Positions 9,536-60,178 of a stretch of DNA of 64,000 bases are shown piece by piece. Origin of the DNA: Oscillospiraceae bacterium (GTDB lineage Bacteria > Bacillota > Clostridia > Oscillospirales > CAG-272); NCBI GenBank assembly GCA_015064155.1, contig SVST01000004.1, forward strand, positions 62,001 through 126,000, in the 5' to 3' direction. How positions within the stretch are numbered: the first letter of the stretch is position 1; every line of letters begins with the position of its first letter. The position numbers were made by a program, and so were the translations under genes. The notes under the pieces were generated by a model, which searched no databases, was not told the DNA's origin, and saw only the letters and a program-made list of their open reading frames with translations.

Positions 9536-9561
9536 ATTCTAAAATATCGGTTTAACGATGC

Positions 9562-9774: not shown

Positions 9775-9890
9775 TTCGGGTACCTCCATAGAAAATAGAA
9801 ATAGTTGTACCCGAAAAAACAGGTTCAAGGACCGCGCGTTATAGAAGGATCAACGGGGGAAGCCAAGGATGTTATCACGAATACAGTAGC

Positions 9891-9919
9891 AGTATAGCAC
9901 AAAAGTGCTGAAAAGTCAA
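9891..9919 (-). promoter_or_regulatory. Promoter of cold-shock gene with long leader
   Basis: Minus strand TTGACT (9919-9914), 17 bp, TATACT (9896-9891); predicted 5' UTR about 110 nt. Confidence 0.8.
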
Positions 9920-13768: not shown

Positions 13769-13806
13769 CGCACCAAGCTATAAAAGCTCTCTCCGATCGG
13801 CCATAC

Positions 13807-13919
13807 GAAGCGGGATGCAAGACACGAACCGCAAGAGCGCAACTCTTTTCGTCCGTTCGACAACTCCCCGTTCGAACGGCACTAAAGGGATAAAACCAAC
13901 GCCCGTGTCTTTACTCTTC
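13807..13919 (-). promoter_or_regulatory. Tetrahydrofolate (THF) riboswitch
   Basis: On the minus strand the element opens GAAGAGTA (from 13919) and closes GCATCCCGCTTC (to 13807), the conserved THF-aptamer ends. Inside, AAGACACG pairs with CGTGTCTT. Enclosed stems include CCGTTCGA/TCGAACGG and AAGAGttgcgCTCTT. Location directly before folT-folC agrees with known THF riboswitches. Ligand binding should lower folT expression through the downstream SD hairpin. Confidence 0.82.
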
Positions 13920-13959
13920 ATATTTTCCGCGCATCGCGGAAGAAACTATTCTACTGTAT

Positions 13960-37549: not shown

Positions 37550-38530
37550 TCAAGGCTCTGTTACAAATACGTAACGGTTTTTGAAGGGATTCACCGAAGG
37601 ATAGCCCTTGTAGTAGCTATCGGGGTCGGTGATATTGGGAAACTCAATACAAAAGCAAAGAGCAATTTCTTCCTCGGTTACGGGAAGATCTTCACGGTCG
37701 ATCAGCATCAAGTATCCCCACTTCGTATCTGCCATGACTTCTCCCCAATCGTCTTCTTGATTGGAGGAATGAACCGCCAACAGAACGTTCCCGGTTCGAA
37801 CGAGTTTATCAAATTGTACCCTGATTCCGCCACACGACCCCGCCATCACCAAAACTGCTTTTTTTGTAAAATCAACGGCTTGCAGCTGCTCGTAAATTTC
37901 CTTGCAATCATCGGGAAGCGCACCACTCTTCAAAAAGTATGCATCAAGCTCGTCAAGCGTTGTAATCAATGCCGAACTCATTAAGTGATTTTTATCCAAA
38001 GGATACCATCCCTCCCCGTAGAAAGAATCCAACACCTCAAACGGTACTTCCTCTGTCGGGATGCTTTCCGGAAGATTCAGGCTTTCGCGCCATGCCGCGT
38101 ATTCTTCCAGCGTTTTAGGTGATTCCGCTAAAACAGCCTTTACCGTGGGTTCCTCGGAGGATGGCGGCATTTCGGAAGATGCAGGCTCTTCGGAGGTTGC
38201 AGGCTCTTCGGAGGTTGCAGGCTCTTCGGAGCTTGTAGGCTCTTCGGAGGTTGCAGGCTCTTCGGAGGTTGCAGGCTCTTCGGAGGTTGCAGGCTCTTCG
38301 GAGGTTGCAGGCTCTTCGGAGCTTGCGGGCTCTTCGGAGCTTTCGGGCTCTTCGGAGCTTGCGGGCTCTTCGGAGCTTTCGGGCTCTTCGGACAACGTAG
38401 GATTTTCGGTGGACGGCAAGATACCCAAACCGTCGGTAGTTGAAATAGGTTCATCCTTTTCGGTTGCACAACCACAGAAGCATCCCAGTCCCAAGGCAAT
38501 AATCAAAAGCATACTAAGAATTTTTTTCAT
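37550..38530 (-). CDS. Lipoprotein with Ser/Thr-Glu-Glu-Pro repeat linker, unknown function
   Basis: 326 residues. Signal peptide ending in a lipobox-like FCGC (Cys21), then about 15 tandem six-residue units of type S-E-E-P-A-(S/T) coded by an 18-bp repeat (about 38150-38400), a likely wall-spanning linker. The C-terminal ~190 residues are globular (AVLVMAGSCGGIRVQFDKLV, KWGYLMLIDREDLPVTEEE) and I do not recognise a family. A surface or periplasm-like role is inferred. The repeat number may vary between strains. Confidence 0.8.
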   Translation of the reverse strand: MKKILSMLLIIALGLGCFCGCATEKDEPISTTDGLGILPSTENPTLSEEPESSEEPASSEEPESSEEPASSEEPATSEEPATSEEPATSEEPATSEEPTSSEEPATSEEPATSEEPASSEMPPSSEEPTVKAVLAESPKTLEEYAAWRESLNLPESIPTEEVPFEVLDSFYGEGWYPLDKNHLMSSALITTLDELDAYFLKSGALPDDCKEIYEQLQAVDFTKKAVLVMAGSCGGIRVQFDKLVRTGNVLLAVHSSNQEDDWGEVMADTKWGYLMLIDREDLPVTEEEIALCFCIEFPNITDPDSYYKGYPSVNPFKNRYVFVTEP

Positions 38531-38852
38531 GATAACTCCTTTCAATATTTGTTTTTCCTTGAGCAATTTTTAATTCCGCTTTTGTTAGACTTTCGTTTTG
38601 GTTTAATTTTAACAAAAAAAGCAGGAGAAGCTTTTATCTTTTTATACATTTTGCTACCCGATTAAATAGTAACATAAATAAGGACTTTTGTCAATACTTT
38701 TTTGAAAATTCGTGTAGTCGAATAAAAAAACTTTTTTTCGCTTGCCATCTTTCCATGTCCGATGAATCATATTTATACAATCTATCACCCCCAAAAATGG
38801 CTTTTTAAGTACAACTCAGGCGGTGCCTCGCGGCACCGCCTGACCGATATAA
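38531..38852. other. 322-bp AT-rich spacer
   Basis: Holds the lipoprotein promoter, minus strand TTGACA (38694-38689), 17 bp, TACTAT (38671-38666), and the second 28-bp palindrome. Otherwise AT-rich without reading frames I would support. Confidence 0.7.
38816..38843. repeat. 28-bp palindrome, copy 2
   Basis: Identical to 37499-37526. It lies just downstream of the Xre gene stop (38853) on the minus strand, again at a 3' end, though without a T-run. Confidence 0.9.
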
Positions 38853-41453: not shown

Positions 41454-42293
41454 TCAATATTTTTTATTCTGCAGTGCCGTTTCGGTATTGTAGATTGCCT
41501 GCTTGGACGCCTTGTCGGAATGCAACACGATATAGCTGTAGATGCTGTCAAACAGCGCAAGCTGTGAATATCTGGAGCTCATCCCAAGAATCGAATACTT
41601 GGTTTCGGCTGACTTTGTAAACAGCGCGTAATCCGAAACCGCCACGATCGGAGAATCCCCGTAGTTGGTCACGCAAACCGTTGCGGCACCGCAGATCTTA
41701 CAAAGCTGTAATGCCTCCACGATATCCTTGGACGCGCCCGAGTGCGAAATTCCGATGGCAACGCTGCCCCGTTTCAGGTGCGACGCGATGATTGCCTGCA
41801 TGTGGTTGTCGCAGCAAGCCTGCGCCGAAAGCCCCAATCGCAGCAGTTTATGTGCCGCGTCCTGCGCGATTGCCGCCGAGTTTCCAAGACCAAACAGCAC
41901 GATTCGGTCGCTTTGCATCACAAGACGCGCCACCGCCTCCAGCTGCTCGGCATCCAAAACCGATTCGGTATCCTTCAAGGATTCCGCAATGTTTCCGTTT
42001 TGCTTGCAAAAGATCTCGTAGCACGTGTCACTCTTTTGGATCTCCTTGCCAAGTGCCGAGGATGCACTCAGCTCGCCTGCCAACCGAATCTTGAGTGCCT
42101 GGTAGCCGTCCAATCCCAACCGACGCGAAAGACGAACCACCGTTGCGTCACCGCACCCGCACTTTTTCGCCAATTCGGAAATCGAAAGCTCAACCATCTC
42201 TCCGGTATGATTCAGAATATACTCTGCGATCCGCTTCTCGGCAGGTCCCATTTCCCCCTGCAAAAACCGCAGTCTGTGCATGATCGATTCCAT
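41454..42293 (-). CDS. MurR/RpiR-family transcriptional regulator
   Basis: 279 residues. An N-terminal HTH_6 domain (LSISELAKKCGCGDATVVRL) is followed by a SIS sugar-phosphate-binding domain (RIVLFGLGNSAAIAQDAAHK, SVAIGISHSGASKDIVEA). Such proteins sense phosphosugars. The ATG at 42293 is preferred because GGGG is 7 nt upstream. It is divergent from a nine-gene catabolic operon, with a 21-bp perfect palindrome next to its own -10, so autoregulation and control of that operon are likely. Confidence 0.9.
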   Translation of the reverse strand: MESIMHRLRFLQGEMGPAEKRIAEYILNHTGEMVELSISELAKKCGCGDATVVRLSRRLGLDGYQALKIRLAGELSASSALGKEIQKSDTCYEIFCKQNGNIAESLKDTESVLDAEQLEAVARLVMQSDRIVLFGLGNSAAIAQDAAHKLLRLGLSAQACCDNHMQAIIASHLKRGSVAIGISHSGASKDIVEALQLCKICGAATVCVTNYGDSPIVAVSDYALFTKSAETKYSILGMSSRYSQLALFDSIYSYIVLHSDKASKQAIYNTETALQNKKY

Positions 42294-42304
42294 CATTTTA
42301 CCCC

Positions 42305-42325
42305 AAATGAAAATTATTTTCATTT
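42305..42325. promoter_or_regulatory. Candidate RpiR operator palindrome
   Basis: Perfect 21-bp palindrome, AAATGAAAAT-T-ATTTTCATTT, abutting the -10 of the regulator promoter on its downstream side. A related imperfect GAAATAATTTTC lies at 42362-42373, just before the -35 of the divergent operon. Confidence 0.75.
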
Positions 42326-42354
42326 ATTGTAGCATTTTTCGAGAAAAAAGTCAA
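42326..42354 (-). promoter_or_regulatory. Promoter of RpiR-type regulator
   Basis: Minus strand TTGACT (42354-42349), 17 bp, TACAAT (42331-42326). Confidence 0.8.
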
Positions 42355-42381
42355 GAGAATAGAAATAATTTTCAAAACTTC

Positions 42382-42410
42382 TTGAAACTGCCCCTTGCGT
42401 ATGGTAGAAT
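42382..42410 (+). promoter_or_regulatory. Promoter of nine-gene catabolic operon
   Basis: TTGAAA (42382-42387), 17 bp, TAGAAT (42405-42410), about 40 bp before the oxidase start. Confidence 0.72.
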
Positions 42411-42451
42411 AAACTGTCTGAAAATATAAAATAAAAGAGGAGAATTCAGTT

Positions 42452-43888
42452 ATGCAGATTCAAATGAATGAATTTTTGTTCTCAATGATCCTGACCGAGC
42501 TGGAAGATGCCGTTGGCGTTGAAAACTGCTCGGTGCGTCAAATTGACAAGGTCACACACAGCGTAGACTACTATTGGCTCTCGCGTATGTGGGCTGACCG
42601 CGGATGCCGTATGCCCGAGGCGGACTTCATCGTTTGCCCCAAGGATGCAAGCGAGGTATCCAAGGTTCTCAAAATTGCGAACTATTATAAGCTGCCCGTA
42701 ACCACTTGGGGTGCCGGCGGCGGAACGCAAGGCGGTGCAATCCCCGTTTGCGGCGGTATTCTGTTGGATACCAAGCGCATGAACAAGATCTACGAGGTCA
42801 ACACCGACGGTATGTACATCGAGTGCGGCACGGGCGCGATCTATAAGCACATTGAGTATGCCGCAAACGAGGTTGGTAAGGCAACCATGCACTATCCCTC
42901 CTCCCTGACCTGCTCCACCGTGGGCGGATTCCTTGCCCACAGAGGCATCGGCGTTTGCTCCACCAAGTACGGCAAGATCGACGACATGGTGCTCCAGATG
43001 GAGGTCGTTCTTCCCAACGGTGATATCATCACCACCTCCCCCGCACCCAAGCATGCGGCAGGTCCCGACCTCAACCAGATTTTCATCGGCTCCGAGGGCA
43101 CGCTTGGCGTAATCACCAAGGCACAGATCCGCATTTTCGACCAGCCCGAGGAACGCCGCTTCAGAGGATTTTTGTTCCAGGATATGCACGGTGCATTCCA
43201 GGCATCCCGCGAGCTTCTGCAGAAGTTCAAGCCCTCTGTTATGCGCTTGTACGACGAGGCAGAAACCGCATCGCTCATCAAAAAGATCGTTGGTGTGGAA
43301 CGCAAGGGCGCATTCATGAACATCGCCTACGAGGGTTGCCGCGAAATGGTAGAGGTCGAGGAAAAGATCCTGCTGGAAACCTTCAAAAAATACGGTGCCG
43401 AGGACCTTGGCAGCGAATACGGCGAAAAGTGGTGGAAGGAAAAGATCACCTTCTTCTATCCCGGTCACATGATGGACATTCCGCAGATGTTCGGCACGAT
43501 GGACACCATTGCCCCCTACAACAAGATCGAGGAGATCTACTGGGCAATGAAGAATGCCATTGAAACCAACTTCCCGCAGGCAAAATTCATTGCGCATTTC
43601 TCGCATTGGTACGAGTGGGGCGCAATGGTTTACGACCGCTTTATCATCGAGGGGAAGGACGTACCGCAGGATCCCGTTGAGGCACTCCGTCTGCACCAAG
43701 CAGTTTGGACGTGCGGTGTTCGTGCGGCTCTGGCACACGGCGGTGTCGTGAACGATCACCACGGTGTGGGCATTAAGCTCGGTCGCTTGATGAAGGAGCA
43801 ATACGGTCCCGCGATGCAGGTGTTCGAGGGTCTGAAAAAACAGCTTGACCCCAACGGAATCATGAATCCCTTTAAGCTGGGTCTTTGA
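42452..43888 (+). CDS. FAD-binding oxidoreductase (GlcD / alkyl-DHAP synthase-like)
   Basis: 478 residues. PCMH-type FAD domain over about residues 45-235: FIVCPKDASEVSKVLKIANY, TTWGAGGGTQGG, CSTVGGFLAHRGIGVCSTKYG, FIGSEGTLGVITKAQI. The C-terminal FAD-oxidase cap ends NDHHGVGIKLGRLM and LDPNGIMNPFKLGL, as in glycolate/D-lactate dehydrogenases. It should oxidise a hydroxyl group of a sugar or sugar acid and hand electrons to the Fe-S partner and the ETF in the same operon. First gene after the RpiR-controlled promoter. Confidence 0.9.
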   Translation: MQIQMNEFLFSMILTELEDAVGVENCSVRQIDKVTHSVDYYWLSRMWADRGCRMPEADFIVCPKDASEVSKVLKIANYYKLPVTTWGAGGGTQGGAIPVCGGILLDTKRMNKIYEVNTDGMYIECGTGAIYKHIEYAANEVGKATMHYPSSLTCSTVGGFLAHRGIGVCSTKYGKIDDMVLQMEVVLPNGDIITTSPAPKHAAGPDLNQIFIGSEGTLGVITKAQIRIFDQPEERRFRGFLFQDMHGAFQASRELLQKFKPSVMRLYDEAETASLIKKIVGVERKGAFMNIAYEGCREMVEVEEKILLETFKKYGAEDLGSEYGEKWWKEKITFFYPGHMMDIPQMFGTMDTIAPYNKIEEIYWAMKNAIETNFPQAKFIAHFSHWYEWGAMVYDRFIIEGKDVPQDPVEALRLHQAVWTCGVRAALAHGGVVNDHHGVGIKLGRLMKEQYGPAMQVFEGLKKQLDPNGIMNPFKLGL

Positions 43889-43904
43889 TCGGAGGTAGAT
43901 TGAA

Positions 43905-44990
43905 ATGATGATGTCTGAAAAATGTAAGCAGCACGTAGATTCCTGCCGTTTCTGCTGGATGTGCCACCATATCTGCCCCATCGGAAACGCAACGGGTCAC
44001 GAAAGAAGCACGCCCCGCGCAAGAGCATTGGGCATTTCCCTTGTCAACCGCGAGGCAATCGAGCTGTCCGAAATTATGGATAATATTTACGAGTGCGCAG
44101 GCTGTATGGCTTGCGTCAAGGAATGTGTAACAGGCTGGGATCCCGTGATGTTCACCAAAGAGGTCAGAATGCAGGCTGCGATGGAAGACAAGCTCCCCGC
44201 GTACGTCAACAAATTGGTGGATGCTTGCCTGGATTGCGGCAACGCGTACGGCAAGACCGCAATCTGCGACACGCTGCGTGCAAAAATCGCATCCCATTCC
44301 GAAGCAACCGACACACTTTTGTTCCTCGGTACCGATGCACGCTACATGGCTTGTAAGCAGGCAGTCAAGGCAATCGAGGTGCTGGAAAAGGCAGGCGTTC
44401 GCTTCACCGTTCTTGCCGACGAGCCCGCATCGGGCGCACAGCTTGATTTTCTCGTCGGTGCGTTGGAGGAAACCAAGGAGCAAATGGCAAAAGCAGCCGG
44501 GATTATGAACGGCTACAAAACCGTTGTCATCTACGATCCCTTTGATGCAAAGGCAATCAAGCAAACCTACCACGAGTACGGTGTTGAATTGTCCGCAAAG
44601 GCAGTTACCTACACCGCGTTTCTTGCAGAATTGGTACAGTCGGGTGCCTTGCAGGCAAAGAAGACCGACCGCCGCGTGGTCTTCCAGGATCCTTGTCAGC
44701 TCTCCCGCGATCTGGAGGAAACCGAGGAGGCTCGCACGGTCATCTCGGCTTACGCACAGCTTGACGAGATGCTGCTCCACGGCAAGGAAACCGTTTGGGC
44801 GGGTAACATTCTGATGGCACAGTATATGCCGGACGTGATCGATCTGGTTGCAAAGAGAAGACTCTTCAATGCCACCTCCATCGGTGCAACCGCAATCGTG
44901 ACGGCAAGTCCTGCGGAATATACCGCGCTCAAGAACGTCAAGGACAGCGGCGTTGAAATCCTTTCCATTGAAGATTTGATTCTTGCGTGA
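43905..44990 (+). CDS. Iron-sulfur (CCG-type) electron-transfer subunit, GlcF-like
   Basis: 361 residues. Two four-cysteine clusters for 4Fe-4S centres: Cys14-17-20-24 (CRFCWMCHHICP) and Cys64-67-70-74 (CAGCMACVKEC). A heterodisulfide-reductase-like region follows with DACLDCGNA and QDPCQLSRDL. It pairs with the FAD oxidase 16 bp upstream as in GlcDF or LutA-type enzymes and would carry electrons onward. Start by GGAGGT 8 nt before 43905, the first of three consecutive ATGs. Confidence 0.87.
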   Translation: MMMSEKCKQHVDSCRFCWMCHHICPIGNATGHERSTPRARALGISLVNREAIELSEIMDNIYECAGCMACVKECVTGWDPVMFTKEVRMQAAMEDKLPAYVNKLVDACLDCGNAYGKTAICDTLRAKIASHSEATDTLLFLGTDARYMACKQAVKAIEVLEKAGVRFTVLADEPASGAQLDFLVGALEETKEQMAKAAGIMNGYKTVVIYDPFDAKAIKQTYHEYGVELSAKAVTYTAFLAELVQSGALQAKKTDRRVVFQDPCQLSRDLEETEEARTVISAYAQLDEMLLHGKETVWAGNILMAQYMPDVIDLVAKRRLFNATSIGATAIVTASPAEYTALKNVKDSGVEILSIEDLILA

Positions 44991-45001
44991 GGTGAACAAC
45001 G

Positions 45002-45841
45002 ATGCTGGTCAATTTGCAAACCGTATTAAAAATGGCGGAGGAGGGCAACTACTGCATCCCCGCATTTAACGTATACAATATGGAAACCGTGATGGGTGTT
45101 TTGCATGCCGCAGAGGAAATGCACGCCCCGATCATCATGCAGATCTATCCTCGCCTGATGAAGGAGGAAACCGGCTACTTCCTCTCCCCCGTGGTGCTTG
45201 CCGCCGCGGCACGTGCGAGCGTTCCCGTTTGTTTCCATCTTGACCACGGTCCGTCCGAACTGGAAACCACACGCTCTCTCCGTTACGGTGCCACGGGCAT
45301 CATGCTCGACGGCTCCACACTTCCCTTTGAGGAAAACATTGCACTGACCAAACGTGTAGTGGATACCTGCTCTTATCTTGATATCGGCGTTGAGGGTGAG
45401 CTCGGTCACGTAGGAACCACAAACGACGCCGAAATGGACGAATTTACCACTCCCCAAGATGCAAAACGCTTTGTAGAGGAAACCGGAGTGTCCTGCCTTG
45501 CGGTTGCCGTCGGTACGGCACACGGCAGATATTCCAAGCCTCCGAAGCTCGATATCGACCGCATCCGTGCCATTCGTGAGGCAACCGGAAACACGGCTCT
45601 TGTGCTGCACGGCGGCTCGGGTGTTCCCGACGAGGAGATCAAAAAGGCGGTTGCGGCAGGAATTCGCAAAATGAATTTTGCCACCGACATCTGCTATGCG
45701 TTCCTGGACACCTGTCTTGCGGAGCTGCAAAAGCCCAACCGCGCCATCGCGGTGGACAACTTTATGAAAAAGCCGATTGAGGCAGTCAAAGAGTTCTGCG
45801 TCAGCCGCATCAAGCTGGTGGGTGCAGACGGAAAGGCTTAA
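45002..45841 (+). CDS. Class II (zinc) ketose-bisphosphate aldolase
   Basis: 279 residues. Zinc and catalytic motifs: CFHLDHGPSELET, VEGELGHVG, AVGTAHGRY and LVLHGGSGVPDEE, KMNFATDICYAF. Family members include FbaA, GatY/KbaY and IolJ. In company with a PfkB kinase and an IolB-like isomerase it may cleave a phosphorylated deoxy-keto-acid or ketose to DHAP plus an aldehyde. GatY-like length. 11 bp after the Fe-S gene. Confidence 0.92.
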   Translation: MLVNLQTVLKMAEEGNYCIPAFNVYNMETVMGVLHAAEEMHAPIIMQIYPRLMKEETGYFLSPVVLAAAARASVPVCFHLDHGPSELETTRSLRYGATGIMLDGSTLPFEENIALTKRVVDTCSYLDIGVEGELGHVGTTNDAEMDEFTTPQDAKRFVEETGVSCLAVAVGTAHGRYSKPPKLDIDRIRAIREATGNTALVLHGGSGVPDEEIKKAVAAGIRKMNFATDICYAFLDTCLAELQKPNRAIAVDNFMKKPIEAVKEFCVSRIKLVGADGKA

Positions 45842-45844
45842 TCC

Positions 45845-46756
45845 ATGAACAAGATCGTAGGAATCGGCGCGTGTGTATTTGACACGCTCTATAACGTTCC
45901 GACTTACCCCACGGAGGATACCAAAATGCGCGCGGACAGCAGCAAAACGGCGGGTGGCGGTCCGGTTGCAACGGGTCTTGTTGCCGCACAGAAGCTGGGA
46001 ATTCCTACCGCTTATATCGGGAATCTCTCGGATGATAACGGCGGCTTGTTTCTCAAGGGGGACTTTGAAAAATACGGGGTTGCAACCGATTTGATCGACG
46101 TCAAGTCGGGCTACCGTTCCTTTGCGTCGGTGCTGTGGCTGTGTGCCGACAGCGCAACCCGTACCTGCGTTTTTGACAAGGGAAATCTTCCGCCCCTTGC
46201 GCTCAACGAAGCGCAAAAAAAGGCAATTGCCGACGCGACGCTTCTGATGGTAGACGGCAACGAGCTGGATGCCGCCGTGGAAGCGGCAAAAATCGCCAAG
46301 GAAAACGGCACGAGGGTGCTTTACGATTGCGGCGGTCTTTACCCCAACGTTGACCGCTTGCTGTCCCTGACCGATATCATGATCCCCTCCGAGGAGTTTG
46401 CGCTCGGTCACACGGGCTGTACAAGCGTTGAAGACGCCGCACGCGAGCTGTTTGCGCGGTATGCGCCAAGGGTCGTGGTCATCACCCAAGGCAAAAAGGG
46501 CGGCATTCTGTTCGACGGAGAACACATGGAGTCCTATCCCATCTATCCCGCAAAGGTTGTTGATTCCAACGGCTCGGGGGACGTCTTCCACGGCGCGTTT
46601 GCCGCCGCAACCGTGATGGGATACGACTACAAAACCTGCTGTCATTTTGCCAGCGCGACTGCCGCGCTCAAATGTACGGGGATCGGTGCGCGCGAAAGCG
46701 TGCCGAGCTTCGACACGGTAAAGAAATTTATGGAGGAAAACGGCTATGAACTTTAA
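45845..46756 (+). CDS. PfkB-family carbohydrate kinase
   Basis: 303 residues. N-terminal SKTAGGGPVATGLVAAQKLG (sugar-binding Gly run) and the C-terminal anion-hole motif VDSNGSGDVFHGAFAAA with the catalytic Asp. It phosphorylates a sugar or keto-acid with ATP. The 3-bp spacing from the aldolase gene suggests its product is the aldolase substrate, as IolC precedes IolJ in inositol breakdown. Overlaps the next gene by 11 bp. Confidence 0.92.
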   Translation: MNKIVGIGACVFDTLYNVPTYPTEDTKMRADSSKTAGGGPVATGLVAAQKLGIPTAYIGNLSDDNGGLFLKGDFEKYGVATDLIDVKSGYRSFASVLWLCADSATRTCVFDKGNLPPLALNEAQKKAIADATLLMVDGNELDAAVEAAKIAKENGTRVLYDCGGLYPNVDRLLSLTDIMIPSEEFALGHTGCTSVEDAARELFARYAPRVVVITQGKKGGILFDGEHMESYPIYPAKVVDSNGSGDVFHGAFAAATVMGYDYKTCCHFASATAALKCTGIGARESVPSFDTVKKFMEENGYEL

Positions 46757-47540
46757 AAAATCCTATCGCCCCCAAAAGGGCTATACACCGATCTGCAAGA
46801 TCGGAGAATGCTCCCTTGGCAAGCTGGAATTCGGCATCATCGAATTGGATGCCAAGGAAAAGCTGACCTTTGATACCCAAGATAAGGAAACCGCATTCAT
46901 CATGTTGCGGGGTCACTGCAACGTCTTCGTGAACGGCGAGCTTTGGGAAAACGTGGGAAACAGACAAAGCGTATTCGAAAACCGCCGCGCAGAAAGCTTC
47001 TATATGCCGCGTGAGCAGACACTTGAAATCGAAGCGATCGACTCTGTCAAGATCGCGGTTTGCGCAACGCCGGTTGCAGAAAAGACCGCACCCCAGCTGC
47101 TTCGCGAGGATCACGTCGTGCTCAAGCTGTTGGGAGAGGTTCCTTTCCAAAGAGAAACCAGCTTTATCATCGACCAAAATTCCAATGCCAAGGTGCTGAC
47201 CATCGGGGAAGCCTACTGCACCGAGGGCAACTGGGCAGGATTCCCGCCGCACAAGCACGACGTAAACAACATGCCCACCGAGTGCGTTGCCGAGGAGATC
47301 TACTACTTCCTCTTCGAGCCCGAGCAGGGATTTGCGGTACAGTGCCTGTACACGGCGGACGGGGAGATCGACGAAGCCTACCGCGTGAAAAACGACGAGC
47401 TGGTGGAATTCCCCTACGGCTACCATACCACCGTATCCACTCCCGGCTATCAGACCTACTTTTTGTGGCTGATGGCGGGTGATTATCAGGGCTTTAACCG
47501 CAGCAGCGACCCCGATCACGCTTGGATCGAAAAGCGCTGA
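46746..47540 (+). CDS. IolB/KduI-like uronate isomerase (5-deoxy-glucuronate isomerase family)
   Basis: 264 residues, a double cupin. WAGFPPHKHD and AEEIYYFLFEPEQGFAVQ are the metal-binding block of IolB, with a late His in YGYHTTVS. IolB converts 5-deoxy-D-glucuronate to 5-dehydro-2-deoxy-gluconate. No IolD, IolE or IolG is in this operon, so the real substrate may be a related uronate. Translation is coupled to the kinase by the 11-bp overlap. Confidence 0.87.
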   Translation: MNFKKSYRPQKGYTPICKIGECSLGKLEFGIIELDAKEKLTFDTQDKETAFIMLRGHCNVFVNGELWENVGNRQSVFENRRAESFYMPREQTLEIEAIDSVKIAVCATPVAEKTAPQLLREDHVVLKLLGEVPFQRETSFIIDQNSNAKVLTIGEAYCTEGNWAGFPPHKHDVNNMPTECVAEEIYYFLFEPEQGFAVQCLYTADGEIDEAYRVKNDELVEFPYGYHTTVSTPGYQTYFLWLMAGDYQGFNRSSDPDHAWIEKR

Positions 47541-47560
47541 GGGGTTCTGTGGAGAAGAAT

Positions 47561-49033
47561 ATGAAGTATCTTCTTGGAATTGATTTCGGAGGCGGTGCCT
47601 CCAAGGCCACGCTTCTTGCCGAAAACGGGCAGATCGTGGCAGAGCATACCGTGGAATATCCGACGCTTTATCCCGAAGCGGGAGCTTGCGAGCAATCGCC
47701 TGCGGATTGGATCTCGGCACTGCATGAAAACTGCAAAGCAATCCTTTCAAAAAGCGGAATTTCGCCCTCCGATATTTCCGCCGTTGCCATCGATTCGGCA
47801 ACGCATACCTCGCTTCTTTGCGACAAGGACTTCAAACCGCTTTGCAATGCGATGCATTGGACCGACAGCCGCAGCAGACACGAAGCAACCGATCTTTTGT
47901 TGGGATACGGAGAAGCAATCTTTGAAAAAACCTTTCACAAGCCCGACACGATCTGGACGCTTCCACAGCTTCTTTGGCAGAGGCGCAACCGCCCCGAGCT
48001 GTTTGAAAAGGCACGCTACGTCTTCTTTGAAAAAGACTATATCCGCTATTATCTGACGGGTGTTTTCTGCACCGATTATATCGAAGCCGAGGGCAGTATG
48101 CTCTTTGATTGCACGAAAATGCAATGGGACGAGGCACTTTGTGCGCTCGTCGGAATTTCGGTTGAAATGCTTCCCCCCATCGTTCGTCCCACCGATATCA
48201 TCGGTGCCGTAACAAGCGAGGCGGCAGAAAAAACGGGACTTCTTGCAGGCACACCGGTCATTTGCGGAACCACCGATACCGTGATGGAGGTCTTCGCATC
48301 GGGAGCAGTTGAGCAAGGCGACATGACGGTCAAGCTGGCAACGGCGGGACGAATCTGCGTCATCACCGACCGCCCCTACCCCGACCGCCACTTGGTCAAC
48401 TACTCACACATTGCAGACGGGCTGTGGTATCCCGGCACGGCTACGAAAGCGGCGGCGGCTTCCTACCGCTGGTACCGCGACACCTTTGGAGGAGAATACC
48501 GCGAGCTGGACGAGGCAGCGGCAAAGCTCCCCATCGGAGCCGACGGTGTATTCTTTCACCCGTATCTCAACGGGGAATTGACCCCTTATGCAGATCCGCA
48601 GCTGTGCGGCAGCTTCACGGGGCTTCGTGCAACGCACACCAAAGCACACTTTACCCGCGCGGTTTTGGAGGGCGTTTCGCTCTCGCTTCTTGATTGCAAA
48701 CGCTATTTGGACGGCTTGGAAATTCCGCACAAGGATTTTGCCACGCTGATCGGCGGCGGCACCAAGGGGACGCTCTGGCGGCAAATTACCGCAGATGCCC
48801 TTGGGATCACACTGCACGTCACCGAAAGTGCCGATTCCTCGTTTGGCTCGGCAATGCTGGCAGGCATCGCAACGGGGGTATTCTCCAACGCGAAGGACGC
48901 CGTCCAAAAATGCGTCAAAAAAATCGCAACCGTAACCCCCAATCCCGAAAGCACCGCGCAGTATGCACGGCTGTTTGAGGACTATCAAAAAATTCACCAT
49001 GCGCTCGCCCCGATCTACCGTGAGCGTGTGTAA
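47561..49033 (+). CDS. FGGY-family carbohydrate kinase (xylulokinase-like)
   Basis: 490 residues. GIDFGGGASKATLLAENG (phosphate loop 1), AIDSATHTSLLCD, MHWTDSRS, GTTDTVMEVFASG and IGGGTKGTLWRQITAD (ATP side). The second kinase in the operon, so two distinct sugars or two phosphorylation points are handled. Start at 47561 with GGAGAAG upstream. Substrate is probably a keto-pentose or keto-hexose. Confidence 0.92.
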   Translation: MKYLLGIDFGGGASKATLLAENGQIVAEHTVEYPTLYPEAGACEQSPADWISALHENCKAILSKSGISPSDISAVAIDSATHTSLLCDKDFKPLCNAMHWTDSRSRHEATDLLLGYGEAIFEKTFHKPDTIWTLPQLLWQRRNRPELFEKARYVFFEKDYIRYYLTGVFCTDYIEAEGSMLFDCTKMQWDEALCALVGISVEMLPPIVRPTDIIGAVTSEAAEKTGLLAGTPVICGTTDTVMEVFASGAVEQGDMTVKLATAGRICVITDRPYPDRHLVNYSHIADGLWYPGTATKAAAASYRWYRDTFGGEYRELDEAAAKLPIGADGVFFHPYLNGELTPYADPQLCGSFTGLRATHTKAHFTRAVLEGVSLSLLDCKRYLDGLEIPHKDFATLIGGGTKGTLWRQITADALGITLHVTESADSSFGSAMLAGIATGVFSNAKDAVQKCVKKIATVTPNPESTAQYARLFEDYQKIHHALAPIYRERV

Positions 49034-49059
49034 GCTTTATCAAAAAAAGGAGTTTTATC

Positions 49060-49917
49060 ATGAAATATCAAGACATCAATCTGATTCCGCCCGAGGAGTT
49101 GGGCATTGGAAGCAACATCAAGCTCAACGTATGCGAGCATGAGGTCGATATGTACTGGAAGGTCGCCATCGAGGTGCTGGAGGTCATCGCAGAAAACAAT
49201 CGCAAGGGCGAGCCCACCGTTATGGTCGTTCCCTACGGCCCCATCGGTCCCTACGCGCGCATGGCGGAATTGGTAAACAAGTACCGCATCTCGCTGAAAA
49301 ACTGCGTATTCATCAACATGGACGAATACCTCAAGGAGGATCTCACCTACATCGATTACGATCATCCGCTTTCCTTCCGCGGCGGTATGGACAGAACCTT
49401 CTATTCCAAGGTTGACGACGAATTGAACGTCCTCCCCGAAAACCGCATCTTCCCCGAGCCCGGCAACGAGGGTCGCGTTCTGGAGATCATTGAAAAATAC
49501 GGCAAGCTGGACATGGTATTCGGCGGTGTCGGCATCAACGGACACTATGCCTTCAACGAGCCGCCCGAAGCCGACGAAAACGTAACCCCCGAGGAATTTG
49601 CACAGCGTCCCACCAGAAAGCTCAAAATCGCGCGTGAAACCCGCACCATCAACGCATTCATGAACTGCGGTGCCAACATCGAAGCCATTCCCGAGAACTG
49701 CATCACGGTTGGTATGAAAGAAATTATGATGGCGAAAAAGATCCGTATGTGCATGCCCCGCGACTGGAATGCGGCGGCTTTGCGTAAGGTTCTGCACGGC
49801 GGCGTAACCGCAAGCGTTCCCTGCTCGCTCTTCCAGAATCATCCCGACGCACTTCTGTATGCGGCAAAGGTAGCAACCGCTTGCCCCGTATCCGAAATCC
49901 GCGTTTACAACAAATAA
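49060..49917 (+). CDS. nagB: Glucosamine-6-phosphate deaminase/isomerase-like protein
   Basis: 285 residues. FINMDEYLKEDL and FGGVGINGHYAFNEPPEADE are the NagB catalytic and sugar-phosphate segments, and RTINAFMNCG plus ITVGMKEIMMAKKI complete the fold. NagB turns glucosamine-6-P into fructose-6-P and ammonia. The sequence departs from standard NagB (GVGINGH for GIGEDGH), so a variant amino-sugar phosphate is possible. Immediately followed by nagA, only 1 bp apart. Confidence 0.82.
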   Translation: MKYQDINLIPPEELGIGSNIKLNVCEHEVDMYWKVAIEVLEVIAENNRKGEPTVMVVPYGPIGPYARMAELVNKYRISLKNCVFINMDEYLKEDLTYIDYDHPLSFRGGMDRTFYSKVDDELNVLPENRIFPEPGNEGRVLEIIEKYGKLDMVFGGVGINGHYAFNEPPEADENVTPEEFAQRPTRKLKIARETRTINAFMNCGANIEAIPENCITVGMKEIMMAKKIRMCMPRDWNAAALRKVLHGGVTASVPCSLFQNHPDALLYAAKVATACPVSEIRVYNK

Positions 49918-49918
49918 G

Positions 49919-51118
49919 ATGCATGATCTGATCATTTCGGGAGCATCCGTGGTGCTTCCCACGGGTGTTCTCCCCGAGAGGAACGTCCTGATCCGAAACG
50001 GTAAGATCGCAGACCTCAACCTTCCCGACAAAACAAGGGAAGGTATTTTGAGCATTGACGCAAAAGGAATGCTCTTGTTTGCGGGATTTGTCGATCTGCA
50101 CGTGCACGGCGGAGGCGGCGCGGACTTCATGGATGCCACCCCCGAAGCCTTTGAAACGGCAGTCCGTGCGCACCTGGCACATGGAACGACTCTGCTCTAC
50201 CCCACCGCCATGAGTGCTACGGAACGGGATCTTACCGCATTTCTGCAAGCCTTTTCGGCTTTTCGCAAGACGAGTTTGCTGGCTTCTTTGACACCGGGCG
50301 TGCATCTGGAGGGTCCCTATTTTGCAGGTGCGGGACAGAAAAGCAGCGGCGCACAGCCGACCGACGTGTTGCGTCTTCCCGACCTTGACGAGGTCAAACG
50401 CTTGCTCGCAGTCGCAGACGGCGCGATCCTGCGCTGGGATGCCGCCCCCGAGTTGGAGGGGGCAGGCAGCTTTGCAAAGTACCTGACAGAACGCGGCGTC
50501 CGCGTTGCCGTTGCGCATACCGATGCCACCGCAGAAGAATGTGCAAACGGATACGAACACGGATTTTCTCACGTCACCCATTTCTACAACGCCAACAGTA
50601 TGCACCGCAAGCGCGACCAAAAGGTCTATGCGGGGGTCGTGGAGGCAACCTATCTTGACGACCGTGTCAGCGTGGAATTGATCGGTGACGGCTGTCATAT
50701 CCCTCGCGAGGACATCCTGCTCGCACTCAAAATCAAGGGATGCGACAAGGTTTCGGTCATCACCGATGCCACGCGCATTGCGGGAACCGATCTCAAGCAA
50801 GCCAAGCTTGGAAGCCTTACGAACGGACGCGACGTGATCGTGGAGGATGGCGTTGCCAAGCTTCCCGACCGTTCCTCGTTTGCCGGCAGTATTGCCACGA
50901 TGGATCGTTGCCTGTGCGTGCTTTGTCGGGACTATGGCATCTCCCCCGAGCTTGCAACGGTGATGCTTTCGCTGGCTCCCGCCAAATACATGGGCGCGGA
51001 TGCAACCAAGGGGAGCATTGAAATCGGAAAGGATGCCGATCTTTTGCTGGTAGATTCCGAGTGGAGGGTTCGCAAGGTCATTCTCGGCGGCAAGCCTTTG
51101 TCCGCAGAAGCTCTGTGA
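49919..51118 (+). CDS. nagA: N-acetylglucosamine-6-phosphate deacetylase
   Basis: 399 residues. Amidohydrolase with DLHVHGGGGADFMD, HLEGPYF (metal Glu), VAHTDATAEE, THFYNANSMHRK and the catalytic-Asp segment ITDATRIAGTD. It removes acetate from N-acetyl-hexosamine-6-phosphate in the cytoplasm. Paired with the NagB-like gene, it argues that the operon substrate carries an N-acetyl group. No strong Shine-Dalgarno, consistent with coupling to nagB. Confidence 0.92.
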   Translation: MHDLIISGASVVLPTGVLPERNVLIRNGKIADLNLPDKTREGILSIDAKGMLLFAGFVDLHVHGGGGADFMDATPEAFETAVRAHLAHGTTLLYPTAMSATERDLTAFLQAFSAFRKTSLLASLTPGVHLEGPYFAGAGQKSSGAQPTDVLRLPDLDEVKRLLAVADGAILRWDAAPELEGAGSFAKYLTERGVRVAVAHTDATAEECANGYEHGFSHVTHFYNANSMHRKRDQKVYAGVVEATYLDDRVSVELIGDGCHIPREDILLALKIKGCDKVSVITDATRIAGTDLKQAKLGSLTNGRDVIVEDGVAKLPDRSSFAGSIATMDRCLCVLCRDYGISPELATVMLSLAPAKYMGADATKGSIEIGKDADLLLVDSEWRVRKVILGGKPLSAEAL

Positions 51119-51125
51119 GGTGCTT

Positions 51126-52502
51126 ATGAAAATCGTTGTTTGCGTGCGCTTTGGCATCGACGGAGAGATCGGTCCCTTTGATGCCAGTGCCTATGAAACC
51201 GCCCTGCAGATCGAGGGAGCAGAGATTACGTTGCTTTCGATGGGTGCGCCAAGTGTCGGGGAGCGTCTTTTACAGCTCACGCGCTTGGGTGCCGCACGGG
51301 CAATCCTGCTGTCCGACAAAGCGTTTGCCGCAGCCGACACGCTTGCCACCGCCAAAACCCTTGCGGCGGCGGTGAAACGGCTCTCGCCCGATCTTGTGAT
51401 CTGCGGACGGCAAACCTTGGTGGGGGACACCGCACAAACCGGTCCCATGCTTGCCTATTTTGCAGGTCTTTCCCTAATTACGAACGTCATGTCGATCGAT
51501 ATGCTGTCCGACCGCGAAATGACGGCAACCACACGCATGGAGGAACGCGTTTGCGCGTCCTTTCCCGCGCTCATCACCGTAGAACGAATCAACACACTGC
51601 GCCTTCCGCGTATGCGTTCAAAGATCGGCGAAATTGAGGTATTGGGGATCGATGCGCTGTCGTTGACCGCCTCCGAGTGCGGACTTTTGGGTTCTCCCAC
51701 GCGCGTCGTACAAACCTTTGAAAACCAAAGCGGAAAACGGAAATGCAAAAGGATCGGCTACGGCGAATTGGACACCGCTATCCAAGACGGTCTGCGCCGC
51801 TATTTGGCAAAAACGCAGATCAAGACCGCGTCAGAGGAACGGCTTGCGCGGGTTTGCACCGTTGGAGAGGCCCCCGTGGAGTTTGCCAAAACGGTCAGTG
51901 ATGACGTGACAATACTCCCCTTTACCGATGCCGACGAGCTGTGCCGTCGCATCACGGCTTGCTCCCCCACGGCGGTGCTTTGGGGAAGCGACGATGCCTC
52001 CAAGAGAATGGCGGCAATCGTTGCGGCAAGACTGAATTTAGGTCTTTGTGCCGATTGCACGCGACTGGAAGCCGAAAACGGGGAATTGATGATGTACCGT
52101 CCGGCACTTTCGGGAAGCACGATCGCAAAAATTCGAAGCACCACGCGTCCCGCGATGGCAACGGTCAGAACCGCATCGGGCGGCAAGCGTGACGTTGTCA
52201 TTGGTGCGGGATTTGGCGTGCGAAACGATTTGGAACGGGTCTATGCCTTGGCAGAACGGCTGGATGCCGAAGTGGTTACCAGCCGAAAAATGGTGGACAA
52301 CGGCATTTTGCCCTACCCCTTGCAGCTTGGTCTTACCGGAAAAACTCTGCATCCGCCGGTTTATATTGCCATCGGCATCTCGGGCGCGATCCATCACGTT
52401 GCGGGGATGCAAAACGCGGGCACGGTGATCGCCATCAATCCCGACCCCGATGCCCCCATTTTCGAGTATGCCGACTACGGTATCGTCGATTGCTTCCGAT
52501 AA
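51126..52502 (+). CDS. Single-chain electron-transfer flavoprotein, EtfB-EtfA fusion
   Basis: 458 residues. Residues 1-~195 resemble EtfB (MKIVVCVRFG start, VICGRQTLVGDTAQTGPMLA). Residues ~210-458 resemble EtfA, ending in the FAD domain: GAGFGVRNDLERVYALAERL, SRKMVDNG, QLGLTGKTLHPPVYIAIG, GISGAIHHVAGMQNAG, INPDPDAPIFEYADYGIVD. Normal EtfB plus EtfA total near 600 residues, so both halves are trimmed. It should accept electrons from the operon's oxidase and Fe-S protein. ATG at 51126 with GAGG 5 nt upstream; a GTG at 51120 is the alternative. Last gene before the terminator. Confidence 0.9.
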   Translation: MKIVVCVRFGIDGEIGPFDASAYETALQIEGAEITLLSMGAPSVGERLLQLTRLGAARAILLSDKAFAAADTLATAKTLAAAVKRLSPDLVICGRQTLVGDTAQTGPMLAYFAGLSLITNVMSIDMLSDREMTATTRMEERVCASFPALITVERINTLRLPRMRSKIGEIEVLGIDALSLTASECGLLGSPTRVVQTFENQSGKRKCKRIGYGELDTAIQDGLRRYLAKTQIKTASEERLARVCTVGEAPVEFAKTVSDDVTILPFTDADELCRRITACSPTAVLWGSDDASKRMAAIVAARLNLGLCADCTRLEAENGELMMYRPALSGSTIAKIRSTTRPAMATVRTASGGKRDVVIGAGFGVRNDLERVYALAERLDAEVVTSRKMVDNGILPYPLQLGLTGKTLHPPVYIAIGISGAIHHVAGMQNAGTVIAINPDPDAPIFEYADYGIVDCFR

Positions 52503-52514
52503 CAGAAAAAACGA

Positions 52515-52548
52515 CTTCCCGCGCAAAATGGGCGCGGGAAGCTTTTTT
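52515..52548 (+). terminator. Terminator of the catabolic operon
   Basis: Arms CTTCCCGCGC (52515-52524) and GCGCGGGAAG (52532-52541), then CTTTTTTA. Overlaps the 3' end of the convergent Xre gene by 2 bp. Confidence 0.9.
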
Positions 52549-57099: not shown

Positions 57100-60000
57100 C
57101 TAAGAAGCCATCCAAGAAAGTGCCGGGTAACCGTCTTGGATTGTGATCCAAACGGTATTGTTCCAGGAAAGCGTATTGTAGATTGTGTTCTCATTCATCA
57201 GATTTTCCGCTGTTTCCTGCGTTCCGACTGTATTCGTCGGTGTCGCCGGGGCTTCGTTCAGCATGAACTGTGCGTCCTTCTTGTAGTATACTTTATGCAA
57301 CGTACCGCCGTCAACAACAGCTCCTACAAAGCGACCGATGAAAACGCTCGTGGCACTTGTTGTAGCCGTGACGTCAGAAGCTGTAAAGCATTTGCTGATC
57401 ATACCCGTTTCCCCGTTTTCTCCAACGAAGCCACCCGTACCGACTCTCGTGCAGGTTGCAATTGCTCCCGTGCAATAGGAGTTTGTGATATTCTTGGAGT
57501 TAAGTGATACAAAACCGCCGATATAGGAGTTTGCACTGCTTTTTCCTTGGGAAAGCACGTTGATCGACACATTGGAATAACAGTTATTGATCACATTTCG
57601 ATTGTTGTATGCAAATCCACCAATCTGGATGCAGGAAATCGTACCCGTGGAATCGGTAATGCTTCCGTCTGCTCCGCAGGCAGTAACGGTGCCGTCATTC
57701 AAACCGACCAATCCGCCCAAGGCAACCGCGGACCAACCTTGGGTTCCGGATTCAACGTAGGAACGAACTACCTCGATTTCAATATCGGTATAACAGTTGG
57801 AAAGTACGGCTTCGTTATAACCGACAGCACCACCTGCAACCACCATCGAGTATACCGTATCACTATGATATTGTGCGTCGCAAGATAGGGAAATTTCGAT
57901 TCTTCCGTTTGCGGTAGAATTTTGTACCAGCTGTTCGGAATATCCCGCAATCATTCCCACAAACAAAGTCAAGTCCCCGCCGGTACTTCCGTAACGATAC
58001 GTTACGTCTTTTTCACTTCTGGCAGAAATTTCAGCCTCCGCATAACATCCGTCAACCGTTCCGCTGTTGGTTCCAACAACGCCTCCGCCAACGCAGGCAA
58101 AATCCTCGTCATTATCTACAACCGTTGCAAAGAACACCAACATCGCATCCAAAACAGAGCAATCCTGCACGGTTCCCTCGTTGATCGCACAAACAGCCCC
58201 CGCTTCAAAAGCATCCCCGGTGACACTGAGTGTAAAATCCTTGAGGGTCAAATCCTTGATCGTACCCTTGTTCGTGCCTATAAAACCGACGATTGCATCG
58301 GTAGAGGTAATCGTAAAGTTGGAAATCTTGTATCCTTTTCCGTTCAAAATACCGCTGAACTCCGCAATCGGCTGCCATTCCGCGCCACCAAGGTTAATAT
58401 CTGCCGTCAAATGGTAGTTTGCCGTAGGATCGGCGGCAATGCCCTTGAGCTGTTCGGCATTGGAAATGGGTGTACTGGTGATCCATTTGGCATACAGCGT
58501 TATATCAGACAACACGCGATAGGATTCACTGTATCCAACCGTAAAGTCCTCGTTATACCAACCGCCAAAGATCTTTCCGGGATACGTGGGATCTGCGGGC
58601 AGAGAAAGAACGGAATTATATTCCACCGTTTGAGGAGGAATCGAGGATCCTCCCTGCGTATCAAATCGAACCGTAAACTTAATGCTCTCCCAATGGGCAT
58701 ACAGATTCAGATCCTCCAACAAGCCGTACGTTGCCGACGGAGTTCCCTTGTCGTCTGTAAAGCGAGTCGCGCCGTCGCTCTCACCGTTAAACCAGCCGAG
58801 GAATCTGTATCCCACACGGGTGGGAACCTCCAGCTGATAGCTTCCCTGATAAGTAATCGGAATCTCATTTTTTGAAACCACACCGCCCAAAGCATACAAA
58901 CGAATGGTGTATTGCTCCAAGCTAAAGCTTGCATACAGCGTATAGTCACCATACAGCGTTGTTGGGATCGATTTCATAGGTGCGTCCGTCAGATCTTTTT
59001 TGGTACACCAACCGTTAAAAACATATCCGTTGCGGCTGATTACAGGCAACGCATTGGAATCACCTATGTGATAGGTAATCGGATCAAATACACTTCCCGC
59101 CGATTCGGCATCGAATTGAAGCGTGTAGGTTGCAGGCTCCCACTTTGCATACAGAATCGAAGAAGAAAGCGTATACGTCAGCTCGGTAATCGGAAGCCCG
59201 GAATACGACGAAGAGGTATACCATCCCTCGGCACGGTATCCGGGACGATCCAACAAATCAAACGTTTTCAGATCGATGGGCTCATTCCGATAAACCTGAA
59301 CCTGTACCTGATTTCCAAACGTATCATTCAGCGTGATCACACGATAATCCTTCCAAATCGGATAAAGGGTAAGATCCTCTGTCACCGATCCCCGGTAGGG
59401 TTCACTGCTGCCAGGAACAGCAGACCATCCGATAATAATACTCGAACCGGTATCCAAGTCGGGAAATTGATCCTCAGGAATAGATTGTCCGTATACGAGC
59501 GAGAGTTCCTTTTTCAGATATCTGCTGTCATTAAAGTCAAAGGTAACCGTAAGCTGCTTTGTTTCAAAACGTGCGTACAGTCTAACTGTATTTTCAACGA
59601 TCTGATAGATGCGGTCGGTAAAGTTCTGCTTTTCTCTCAAAACGGCTCCGCCGTTAGAGTAGCGAACACCGTCCGAGTCCTCCCACCCTACAAAGGTAAA
59701 TCCCTGCTTGACGGGAATCGGAAAGGTTTGCAGCGTACTGCCATACGCAACCTCCAATTCATCTTCGCCCGTGTTAAGGGTCGCGCCGGGAGCTTCAAAA
59801 ACAATGTAGTGCGGAATTGCTTTCCATTGTGCATACAGTGTCATGTCCCCCGTCATTTCAAGCTGACAAATCCCCAGCTCATCCACGTACATCGTTCCGC
59901 CCTGCTTGCTGTCAAACAGTCCGTTAAACACGTATCCGGTTTTAGTGGGAACAGACCCTATTTTGATTTTGTTGTTTTGCGTTGTATATTTTACGGGAGC

Positions 60001-60153: not shown

Positions 60154-60178
60154 AGTTAACTTCCTCAAAAAAATTTCG

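Follow-up and report, generated by a model that had tools for sequence, protein, structure and literature searches.

The window analysed here, a 64,000-nt stretch of contig SVST01000004.1 (assembly GCA_015064155.1, Oscillospiraceae bacterium, CAG-272), contains a sugar-catabolic operon organised around one unusual flavoenzyme. Seven of its genes form a core found again in numerous uncultured bacteria of the gut, of which many come from ruminants, and this cassette looks like a hitherto undescribed means of sugar oxidation by way of an electron-transfer flavoprotein (ETF). No description of the cassette was found in the literature searched, the coverage of which lacked most subscription journals and for which several term combinations were narrow. 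Genes were called from an open reading frame (ORF) list together with family scans (Pfam, TIGR/NCBIfam profiles) of the window proteins. The genome holding the window is a 2.1 Mb draft, 86% complete, in which the window lies within contig C12. Window positions are used throughout, the operon region being 41454..52548 (Table 1).

Distribution and order of the seven-gene core

Relatives were collected by a flavoenzyme scan with one genome per species, the best 80 of 210 relatives being kept, and core genes were counted in the 60 of these 80 loci that reach at least 8 kb beyond the flavoenzyme. All seven core genes, encoding a flavin adenine dinucleotide (FAD) dehydrogenase (the flavoenzyme), a two-cluster iron–sulfur (Fe-S) protein, a class II aldolase, a PfkB-family kinase, an IolB-like protein, an FGGY-family kinase and a single-chain ETF, are present in 55/60 loci, and 44 of these 55 keep the window's order, which is the order given here. 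Conservation of gene order beyond this genome, which a first-pass annotation of the window DNA had set as a test, could thus be confirmed. The same annotation had counted NagB and NagA in the set; the two genes are accessory and lie outside the conserved core, and the first is only NagB-like. Among the deviating orders, the IolB gene follows the ETF gene in eight of the 55 loci, one more locus (L152) additionally has the aldolase gene in front, and a third order is found in L158 and L163. Five of the 60 loci are incomplete; L097 and L168 run into the locus end, and in L110, L114 and L115 one to three of the aldolase, PfkB and IolB genes were not found. Those not found in L110 and L115 are aldolase and PfkB (in L115 also IolB), possibly partial deletions.

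According to the record titles, a ruminant host or the rumen is named for 45 of the best 80 relatives. Full-length matches to the single-chain ETF were obtained in 13 of 146 genomes of the same family, the window genome included, and in none of three other listed genomes of the same genus. At the level of the order, 33 of 295 genomes had an IolB match at E <= 0.001, with copies 83–100% identical in seven genomes (window genome counted) across four families. A flavoenzyme match at E <= 1e-60 was present in 8 of 398 genomes of the phylum, again counting the window genome, indicating that the flavoenzyme is far from universal. Phosphofructokinase (PF00365) occurs in 23 of the 24 genomes with cassette genes, the exception (G395) being 68% complete. 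This nearly constant presence suggests that the cassette is an added route, and the idea that it replaces glycolysis as a whole pathway was rejected on the same count.

Family and conservation of the flavoenzyme

As judged by its motifs and scores, the flavoenzyme is of the AGPS/YgcU type and not of the glycolate-dehydrogenase type. Its best solved relatives are the alkyl-dihydroxyacetone phosphate (DHAP) synthases AGPS (2uuu/4bby, 135 bits), compared with 119 bits for D-lactate dehydrogenase and 103 bits for LctD, and in BLAST comparisons Escherichia coli YgcU reached 186 bits and E. coli GlcD about 100 bits. The motifs RLYD, HxxHxY and HHG(V/I)G, which we take to be AGPS/YgcU-type functional residues, are all present in the window protein, in the core relatives shown and in the distant relatives L177 and L178; L179–L183 and YgcU carry the same three, except for HHGLG at one L183 site. 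AGPS sequences align with RVYD or RLMD and HHGVG, and of these AGPS sequences only that of 2uuu has H-x2-H-x-Y. In contrast, E. coli GlcD is without RLYD and reads SGEHGIG near the C-terminus where the window protein reads NDHHGVG, and the score against the GlcD profile (NCBIfam glcD) is 190.3 of 567.9 bits, which speaks against a glycolate-type oxidase. The operon contains no lipid genes, and no second flavoenzyme copy was found in the window genome at its 86% completeness. An AlphaFold model of the flavoenzyme was not used, its mean predicted local distance difference test (pLDDT) score being 44.

Across the 55 complete loci, flavoenzymes share a median pairwise identity of 91%, versus 56–78% for the other six core genes. 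Median agreement at four-fold sites, compared in the 57 loci, of any length, that carry all seven genes, is 41% for the flavoenzyme gene, 32–37% for its partners and 29% by chance, and synonymous sites are nearly saturated. On these four-fold values, purifying selection explains the 91% identity better than recent spread, and a recent spread of the flavoenzyme gene alone is not favoured. Between genomes, the identity of the flavoenzyme exceeds that of RecA in 104 of 105 pairs (medians 86% versus 62%; 15 of 18 genomes, as the motif filter found no RecA ORF in G388, G040 and G098) and that of EF-Tu in 39 of 45 (medians 85% versus 81%; 10 genomes, EF-Tu being full-length in 13/18). Moderate transfer of the cassette may have occurred, and whole-cassette transfer, which the patchy distribution suggests, may account for some of the difference from RecA and EF-Tu; the gap between the flavoenzyme and its partner genes is not easily explained in this way.

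Distant relatives of the flavoenzyme stand in varied surroundings. In L177 (71% identical), genes for NagA, a Gfo/Idh protein, NagB and a TIM-barrel protein precede those for the flavoenzyme, Fe-S protein, aldolase, PfkB, IolB and FGGY, and no ETF was seen in the stretches read. L178 (57% identical) combines the flavoenzyme with an Fe-S gene containing a CCG-type Cys pair (read from DNA), an aldolase, an iron alcohol dehydrogenase, a tripartite ATP-independent periplasmic (TRAP) transporter, a hydroxypyruvate-isomerase-like protein (78 of 353 bits), IolB and FGGY, and neither PfkB nor ETF was found in the stretches read. The flavoenzyme of L182 (35% identical) lies beside a glycerol-3-phosphate-oxidase-like gene and a glycerol kinase gene, and L179, L180, L181 and L183 (one family; 34–36% identical) keep the flavoenzyme–FeS pair. 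Of the seven distant loci, three have an FGGY kinase along with the flavoenzyme, as does E. coli. A FAD_oxidored (PF12831) protein or a relative of it was also observed inside or at the end of the cassette in L106, L164 and L177.

Electron path and catabolic partners

Eight Cys residues, corresponding to two 4-Cys motifs, are invariant in all 58 aligned rows of the Fe-S protein, Cys 108 is present in 54/58, and a conserved adjacent CCG-type Cys pair is absent from the 58 rows. The subunit scores weakly with TfrB, LdhH and GlpC. The nearest solved relatives of the ETF are 5ol2, 4kpu, 7qh2 and 6fah, which we take to be bifurcating ETFs, and its beta part contains a GDTAQ-type motif (GDT in 58/58 rows, A in 47 and Q in 57) that presumably marks bifurcation. 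The single-chain ETF thus appears nearest to the bifurcating type. Oxidation of a secondary alcohol has a potential too high for nicotinamide adenine dinucleotide (NAD+) alone, so that a bifurcating ETF would suit such a reaction. The analysis lends support to the earlier suggestion that the ETF is the likely electron acceptor. Just 3′ of the ETF gene, an Ldh_2-type dehydrogenase gene was observed in L102, L104 and L131, that of L104 being L-sulfolactate dehydrogenase-like (245 of 500 bits).

The nearest solved relative of the aldolase is the tagatose-bisphosphate aldolase 1gvf, and its score against TIGR01858 (tagatose-1,6-bisphosphate pathway) is 228.9 of 443.55 bits. PfkB is nearest to the sulfofructose kinase 7ag6 (111 bits) and reaches 94.6 of 300 bits for IolC, and the FGGY kinase narrowly misses the XylB cut-off (365.6 of 380.25 bits), with 152 bits for GlpK. 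The IolB-like protein exceeds the cut-off of its family profile TIGR04378 (220.6 versus 205 bits) and, when aligned with 2qjv, keeps the KHD region; IolD was not found in the 86%-complete window genome. The parallel with IolJ-IolC-IolB drawn in the first-pass annotation could thus be kept for IolB, but not for PfkB, given its IolC score, or for the aldolase, given its nearest relative. A second IolB class, 35–40% identical to the window's, replaces the usual 71–87% class in otherwise similar cassettes (L069-L072, L078-L081, L085, L088, L138, L157, L158 and L163).

Entry modules

Entry genes on the same strand in the 60 loci encode an SftI-like isomerase (42), DUF4867 (26) and aldose-1-epimerase (19), whereas NagB is found in 10/60, NagA in 8/60 and the two together in 8/60. 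With the SftI-like isomerase as the commonest entry gene, a ketose is the probable starting compound of the core. The window order FGGY-NagB-NagA-ETF recurs in L098, L112, L115, L120, L142, L066 and L067, and a few loci contain a mannose-6-phosphate-isomerase (PMI)-like protein or an N-acetylglucosamine (GlcNAc)-2-epimerase-like protein together with a MurQ/GKRP-like protein. These entry genes are most simply explained if aldoses and amino sugars that differ at C2 all feed into one ketose. The SftI-like proteins of three relatives score 93–113 bits versus an SftI cut-off of 700, the window operon contains none, and no orthologue was found in the 86%-complete window genome (best match 21%). Searches of the PDB with an SftI-like protein or the 677-aa flank protein of L120 yielded no solved relatives. 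According to PMC11968277, 434 of 557 members of the largest DUF4867 cluster lie in neighbourhoods assigned to aldose/ketose metabolism with fucose-isomerase-family and FGGY genes, so that this trio is already known; section 6 of that paper does not mention the flavoenzyme cassette.

Glycoside hydrolases of families GH2, GH3, GH4 and GH31 lie in line with some cassettes. The GH2 enzyme of L161 is beta-galactosidase GalA-like (769 of 900 bits), and the GH4 enzyme of L152 belongs to the alpha-galactosidase subfamily (480 of 486 bits). In the flank scan, which covered 63 of 76 script-selected flank proteins and considered the 25 commonest of 102 families, GH20 was found in 3/63 proteins. That of L140 matches GH20C beta-N-acetylglucosaminidases (363 bits), and its gene lies upstream of nagB-nagA-FAD dehydrogenase, with an AraC-type gene between them on the other strand. 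This gene and the lack of an SftI-like orthologue in the window genome make an N-acetylated amino sugar a plausible substrate in the window organism. To that extent the earlier deduction of an N-acetylated substrate from NagA is plausible, but NagA is not supported as a guide to the whole pathway, as NagB and NagA occur together in so few loci.

The NagB-like protein falls well short of the NagB profile (TIGR00502, 101.6 of 236.9 bits). In 18/18 rows (17 distinct, since L072 and L157 are one locus, identity being shown for NagB), D72, H143 and E148 (E. coli numbering) are retained, D141 is changed to N, K208 to N or Q and R172 to F, Y or S, and the G43-T44 loop is shorter; K208, R172 and the loop are thus kept in 0/18 rows. 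We take these losses to concern the phosphate contacts and the catalytic aspartate. They point to a substrate without a 6-phosphate, so that the NagB-like deaminase probably acts on an amino sugar that is not phosphorylated. The N at position 141 is shared by E. coli AgaI, which could be a weak hint of galacto configuration. A normal NagB (400 bits) is encoded on another contig of the same genome, where a NagB-family match with one in-frame stop was also observed (G000:C20:20036-20629). The NagA-like protein narrowly fails its profile (TIGR00221, 214.7 of 225.65 bits) and keeps E131, H195, H216 and D273 in 15/15 rows, which count L072/L157 twice.

Proposed pathway and its alternatives

We tentatively propose, with rather low confidence in the scheme as a whole, that the FGGY kinase phosphorylates a ketose, the flavoenzyme oxidises the carbon beside the phosphate with the ETF as acceptor, and the aldolase releases DHAP, with interchangeable entry modules in front. 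Gene content, conservation, the exchange of entry modules, the subfamily assignments and the residues lost from the NagB-like protein are direct observations, and from these we infer every reaction, the order of steps and the sugar. Entry modules would turn different aldoses into one ketose, by an SftI-like aldose isomerase in most genomes and by the NagA-like deacetylase and NagB-like deaminase here. The FGGY kinase would place a phosphate onto the far end of the ketose, giving a ketose omega-phosphate, and the AGPS/YgcU-type flavoenzyme would oxidise the alcohol beside it, analogous to glycerol kinase plus glycerol-3-phosphate dehydrogenase. Electrons would pass from the flavoenzyme to the two-cluster Fe-S protein and then to the single-chain, bifurcating-type ETF. 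The class II aldolase would split the oxidised product into DHAP and a second three-carbon piece, and IolB and PfkB could serve the remaining half, or come in immediately ahead of the cleavage. Leading candidates for the sugar would be a galacto- or gluco-configured hexose and its N-acetylamino form. This plan would explain why FGGY, flavoenzyme, Fe-S protein and aldolase stay together even in L178, seemingly without PfkB. It also draws on the glycerol kinase next to the flavoenzyme of L182, on the FGGY kinase YgcE and ETF-like YgcQR in the vicinity of E. coli YgcU, and on the normal NagB elsewhere in the window genome. The fully specified form, a route from the non-reducing end with phosphate on the far carbon, oxidation next to it, DHAP cut off, a bifurcating-type ETF and phosphate-free N-acetylhexosamine entry, is distinctly unlikely to be right in all its parts.

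Several observations weigh against the proposed scheme. Oxidation of a ketose 6-phosphate at C5 would give a chemically awkward second fragment, a hydroxy-dicarbonyl triose, and IolB and PfkB have no firm place; the aldolase could receive a ketose 1-phosphate from PfkB alone, with FGGY and the flavoenzyme serving something else. Neither an SftI-like gene nor NagB is found on the same strand in 11 of the 53 loci with both flanks, and the NagA-like protein has R227 in 10/15 rows, the window included, and H251 in 15/15, so that a phosphorylated substrate may still bind. The TRAP transporter of L178 hints at an acidic substrate there. The stretches read in L179, L180, L181 and L183 contain no FGGY gene and have mixed neighbours, for example a lipid-kinase-like, fatty-acid-synthesis or phosphofructokinase gene, so the link between FGGY and the flavoenzyme is not general.

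Cleavage could instead come first: PfkB and the aldolase would break down a ketose 1-phosphate to DHAP plus an aldehyde of three carbons, and the complex of flavoenzyme, Fe-S protein and ETF would, in the manner of Ldh-Etf complexes, carry out the last step, the oxidation of a lactate-, glycerate- or glycerol-phosphate-like three-carbon product. The proximity of the ETF to LctB and other bifurcating ETFs, the weak TfrB, LdhH and GlpC scores of the Fe-S subunit and the Ldh_2-type dehydrogenase downstream in a few loci are consistent with such an order. Nevertheless, we regard it as unlikely, since the flavoenzyme has HHGVG where GlcD has EHGIG, RLYD is absent from GlcD, the GlcD score is 190 of 568, and FGGY and IolB stay unexplained. 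A sugar-acid route would have two arms, IolB and PfkB acting on a uronate and FGGY and the flavoenzyme on an aldonate, and would lead through 5-keto-aldonate 6-phosphate to DHAP and tartronate semialdehyde. It agrees with the IolB score above cut-off, with PfkB being nearest to sulfofructose kinase, whose substrate has an acid at C6, and with the TRAP transporter, hydroxypyruvate-isomerase-like protein and iron alcohol dehydrogenase of L178. What makes it improbable is that the entry genes of the main group (NagA/NagB-like, PMI-like, GlcNAc-2-epimerase-like and aldose-1-epimerase) and the GH2 beta-galactosidase-like, GH4 and GH20 enzymes located close to some cassettes suggest neutral sugars, and that the NagB-like protein lost positive charges instead of keeping an acid site.

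The flavoenzyme might also run backwards as an electron sink, the ETF bifurcating NADH to reduce ferredoxin and a keto-sugar phosphate. A bifurcating-type ETF and source organisms that, by record titles, seem to be gut anaerobes would suit this arrangement, which we consider very improbable, as no reduced product is apparent (no search was aimed at one) and a triose-yielding sugar pathway needs no such reduction. Among the alternatives, only a canonical N-acetylglucosamine or myo-inositol operon with extra genes is largely excluded, with hardly any likelihood left to it: the NagA-like score close to its cut-off and the IolB score above its own are outweighed by the NagB residues lost in 18/18 rows, the normal NagB elsewhere in the genome, the failure to find IolD in the 86%-complete genome and the conservation of the core without NagA and NagB. 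Family cut-offs and genome searches agree in this respect with the first-pass annotation, according to which the operon fits none of the standard inositol, GlcNAc, galactitol or glycolate pathways.

If the proposed route of ketose phosphorylation followed by oxidation beside the phosphate is real, it would give many uncultured Clostridia of the gut a so far unrecognised way to use dietary or mucin sugars, and its redox step could alter fermentation yields, perhaps including hydrogen output. The cassette also provides a working context for AGPS/YgcU flavoenzymes, the E. coli member of which is annotated only as putative, and raises the question of why a flavoenzyme of catabolism should vary less than EF-Tu when the genes sharing its operon diverge.

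Operon layout and other features of the window

Nine genes on the + strand lie between a promoter-like site and a strong terminator-like hairpin, with a divergent RpiR regulator in front, as previously annotated. For the FGGY gene, an in-frame ATG at 47561 is a likelier start than the TTG at 47522, and with this start the intergenic gaps are -11 to 26 bp, within the -11 to 40 bp claimed earlier. Across the whole region, 7 promoter-like sites (shuffle mean 5.2) and 20 terminator-like sites (shuffle mean 14.4) were found, both near chance, so that the weight rests on the position of each site. The presence of all seven core genes in 55/60 loci, by contrast, exceeds what chance would give. Among the 80 relatives, an opposite-strand RpiR-like gene is present in 34 and an AraC-like gene in 28.

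Table 1. Features of the operon region in window coordinates
Feature	Position	Strand	Evidence
RpiR-family regulator (HTH_6 + SIS), divergent	41454..42323	-	PF01418 77 bits, PF01380 66 bits
Promoter-like site TTGAAA-17-TAGAAT, extended -10	42382..42410	+	Consensus match only
FAD dehydrogenase, alkyl-DHAP-synthase/YgcU type	42452..43888	+	PF01565/PF02913
Fe-S electron-transfer subunit, two 4-Cys cluster motifs	43905..44990	+	PF13183
Class II (F_bP_aldolase) aldolase	45002..45841	+	PF01116 292 bits
PfkB-family sugar kinase	45845..46756	+	PF00294
KduI/IolB-family isomerase	46746..47540	+	TIGR04378 220.6 bits, cut-off 205
FGGY-family carbohydrate kinase	47522..49033	+	XylB TIGR01312 365.6 bits, cut-off 380.25
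NagB-like protein, accessory entry module	49060..49917	+	TIGR00502 101.6 bits, cut-off 236.9; Pfam: no match
NagA-like deacetylase, accessory entry module	49919..51118	+	TIGR00221 214.7 bits, cut-off 225.65
Single-chain ETF (EtfB part, then EtfA part)	51120..52502	+	PF01012 + PF00766
Intrinsic terminator-like hairpin, 10 pairs then CTTTTTT	52515..52541	+	Just 3′ of ETF gene

The genes flanking the operon in the window provide no clue to the substrate. Large proteins with Flg_new (Listeria-Bacteroides) repeats and GLUG motifs are encoded downstream, both in the window (57100-60273, - strand) and in L084. The ORF at 37550-38566 (-) contains a long SSEEPATSEEP-like repeat run, perhaps a cell-surface linker. 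Rfam matches in the window comprise a tetrahydrofolate (THF) riboswitch at 13806-13920 (-), the cspA thermoregulator family at 9503-9912 (-) and Gut-1 RNA at 4375-4449 (-), the last barely reaching the gathering score.

Comparison with known systems

The E. coli ygcQRS-ygcUW-yqcE-ygcE neighbourhood, annotated as putative, shares with the cassette an AGPS-like FAD dehydrogenase (29% identical), an ETF-like pair (YgcQ/YgcR) and an FGGY kinase (YgcE, 23%). However, it has no annotated aldolase, PfkB or IolB, containing instead a dehydrogenase of the short-chain dehydrogenase/reductase (SDR) type and two transporters, and its gene arrangement differs, with separate ETF subunits in place of a single chain. 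Acetobacterium woodii LctBCD (7qh2), which we take to be a lactate dehydrogenase–Etf complex, likewise combines an FAD_binding_4 dehydrogenase with a bifurcating-type ETF; LctD is more distant from the flavoenzyme than AGPS is (103 versus 135 bits), and the cassette differs in its single-chain ETF, separate Fe-S protein and sugar-catabolic setting. An FGGY kinase, a flavoenzyme and a GlpC-like Fe-S protein also occur together in GlpK/GlpABC, and the relative in L182 adjoins GlpK, but the FGGY kinase of the cassette is XylB-like (366 bits) rather than GlpK-like (152 bits), and its flavoenzyme is presumably of another family than GlpA.

Resemblance to the myo-inositol proteins IolB-IolC-IolJ lies in an IolB above the cut-off and the presence of PfkB and a class II aldolase, whereas PfkB fails the IolC cut-off and IolG, IolE and IolD are absent from the operon. 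In GlcNAc and N-acetylgalactosamine (GalNAc) operons (nagBA, aga), NagA- and NagB-like genes are shared and the aldolase is nearest to KbaY; the NagB-like residues of the cassette are changed and its two genes only accessory, with the D141-to-N change shared by E. coli AgaI. Likeness to sulfoglycolysis (sulfo-SFT and sulfo-EMP2; PMC11968277, section 6) extends to the SftI-like isomerase and DUF4867 (SftX) of relatives, to the PfkB nearest to sulfofructose kinase and to the class II aldolase, but the SftI-like proteins stay at 93–113 bits against a cut-off of 700, and the core contains no sulfolactaldehyde enzyme.

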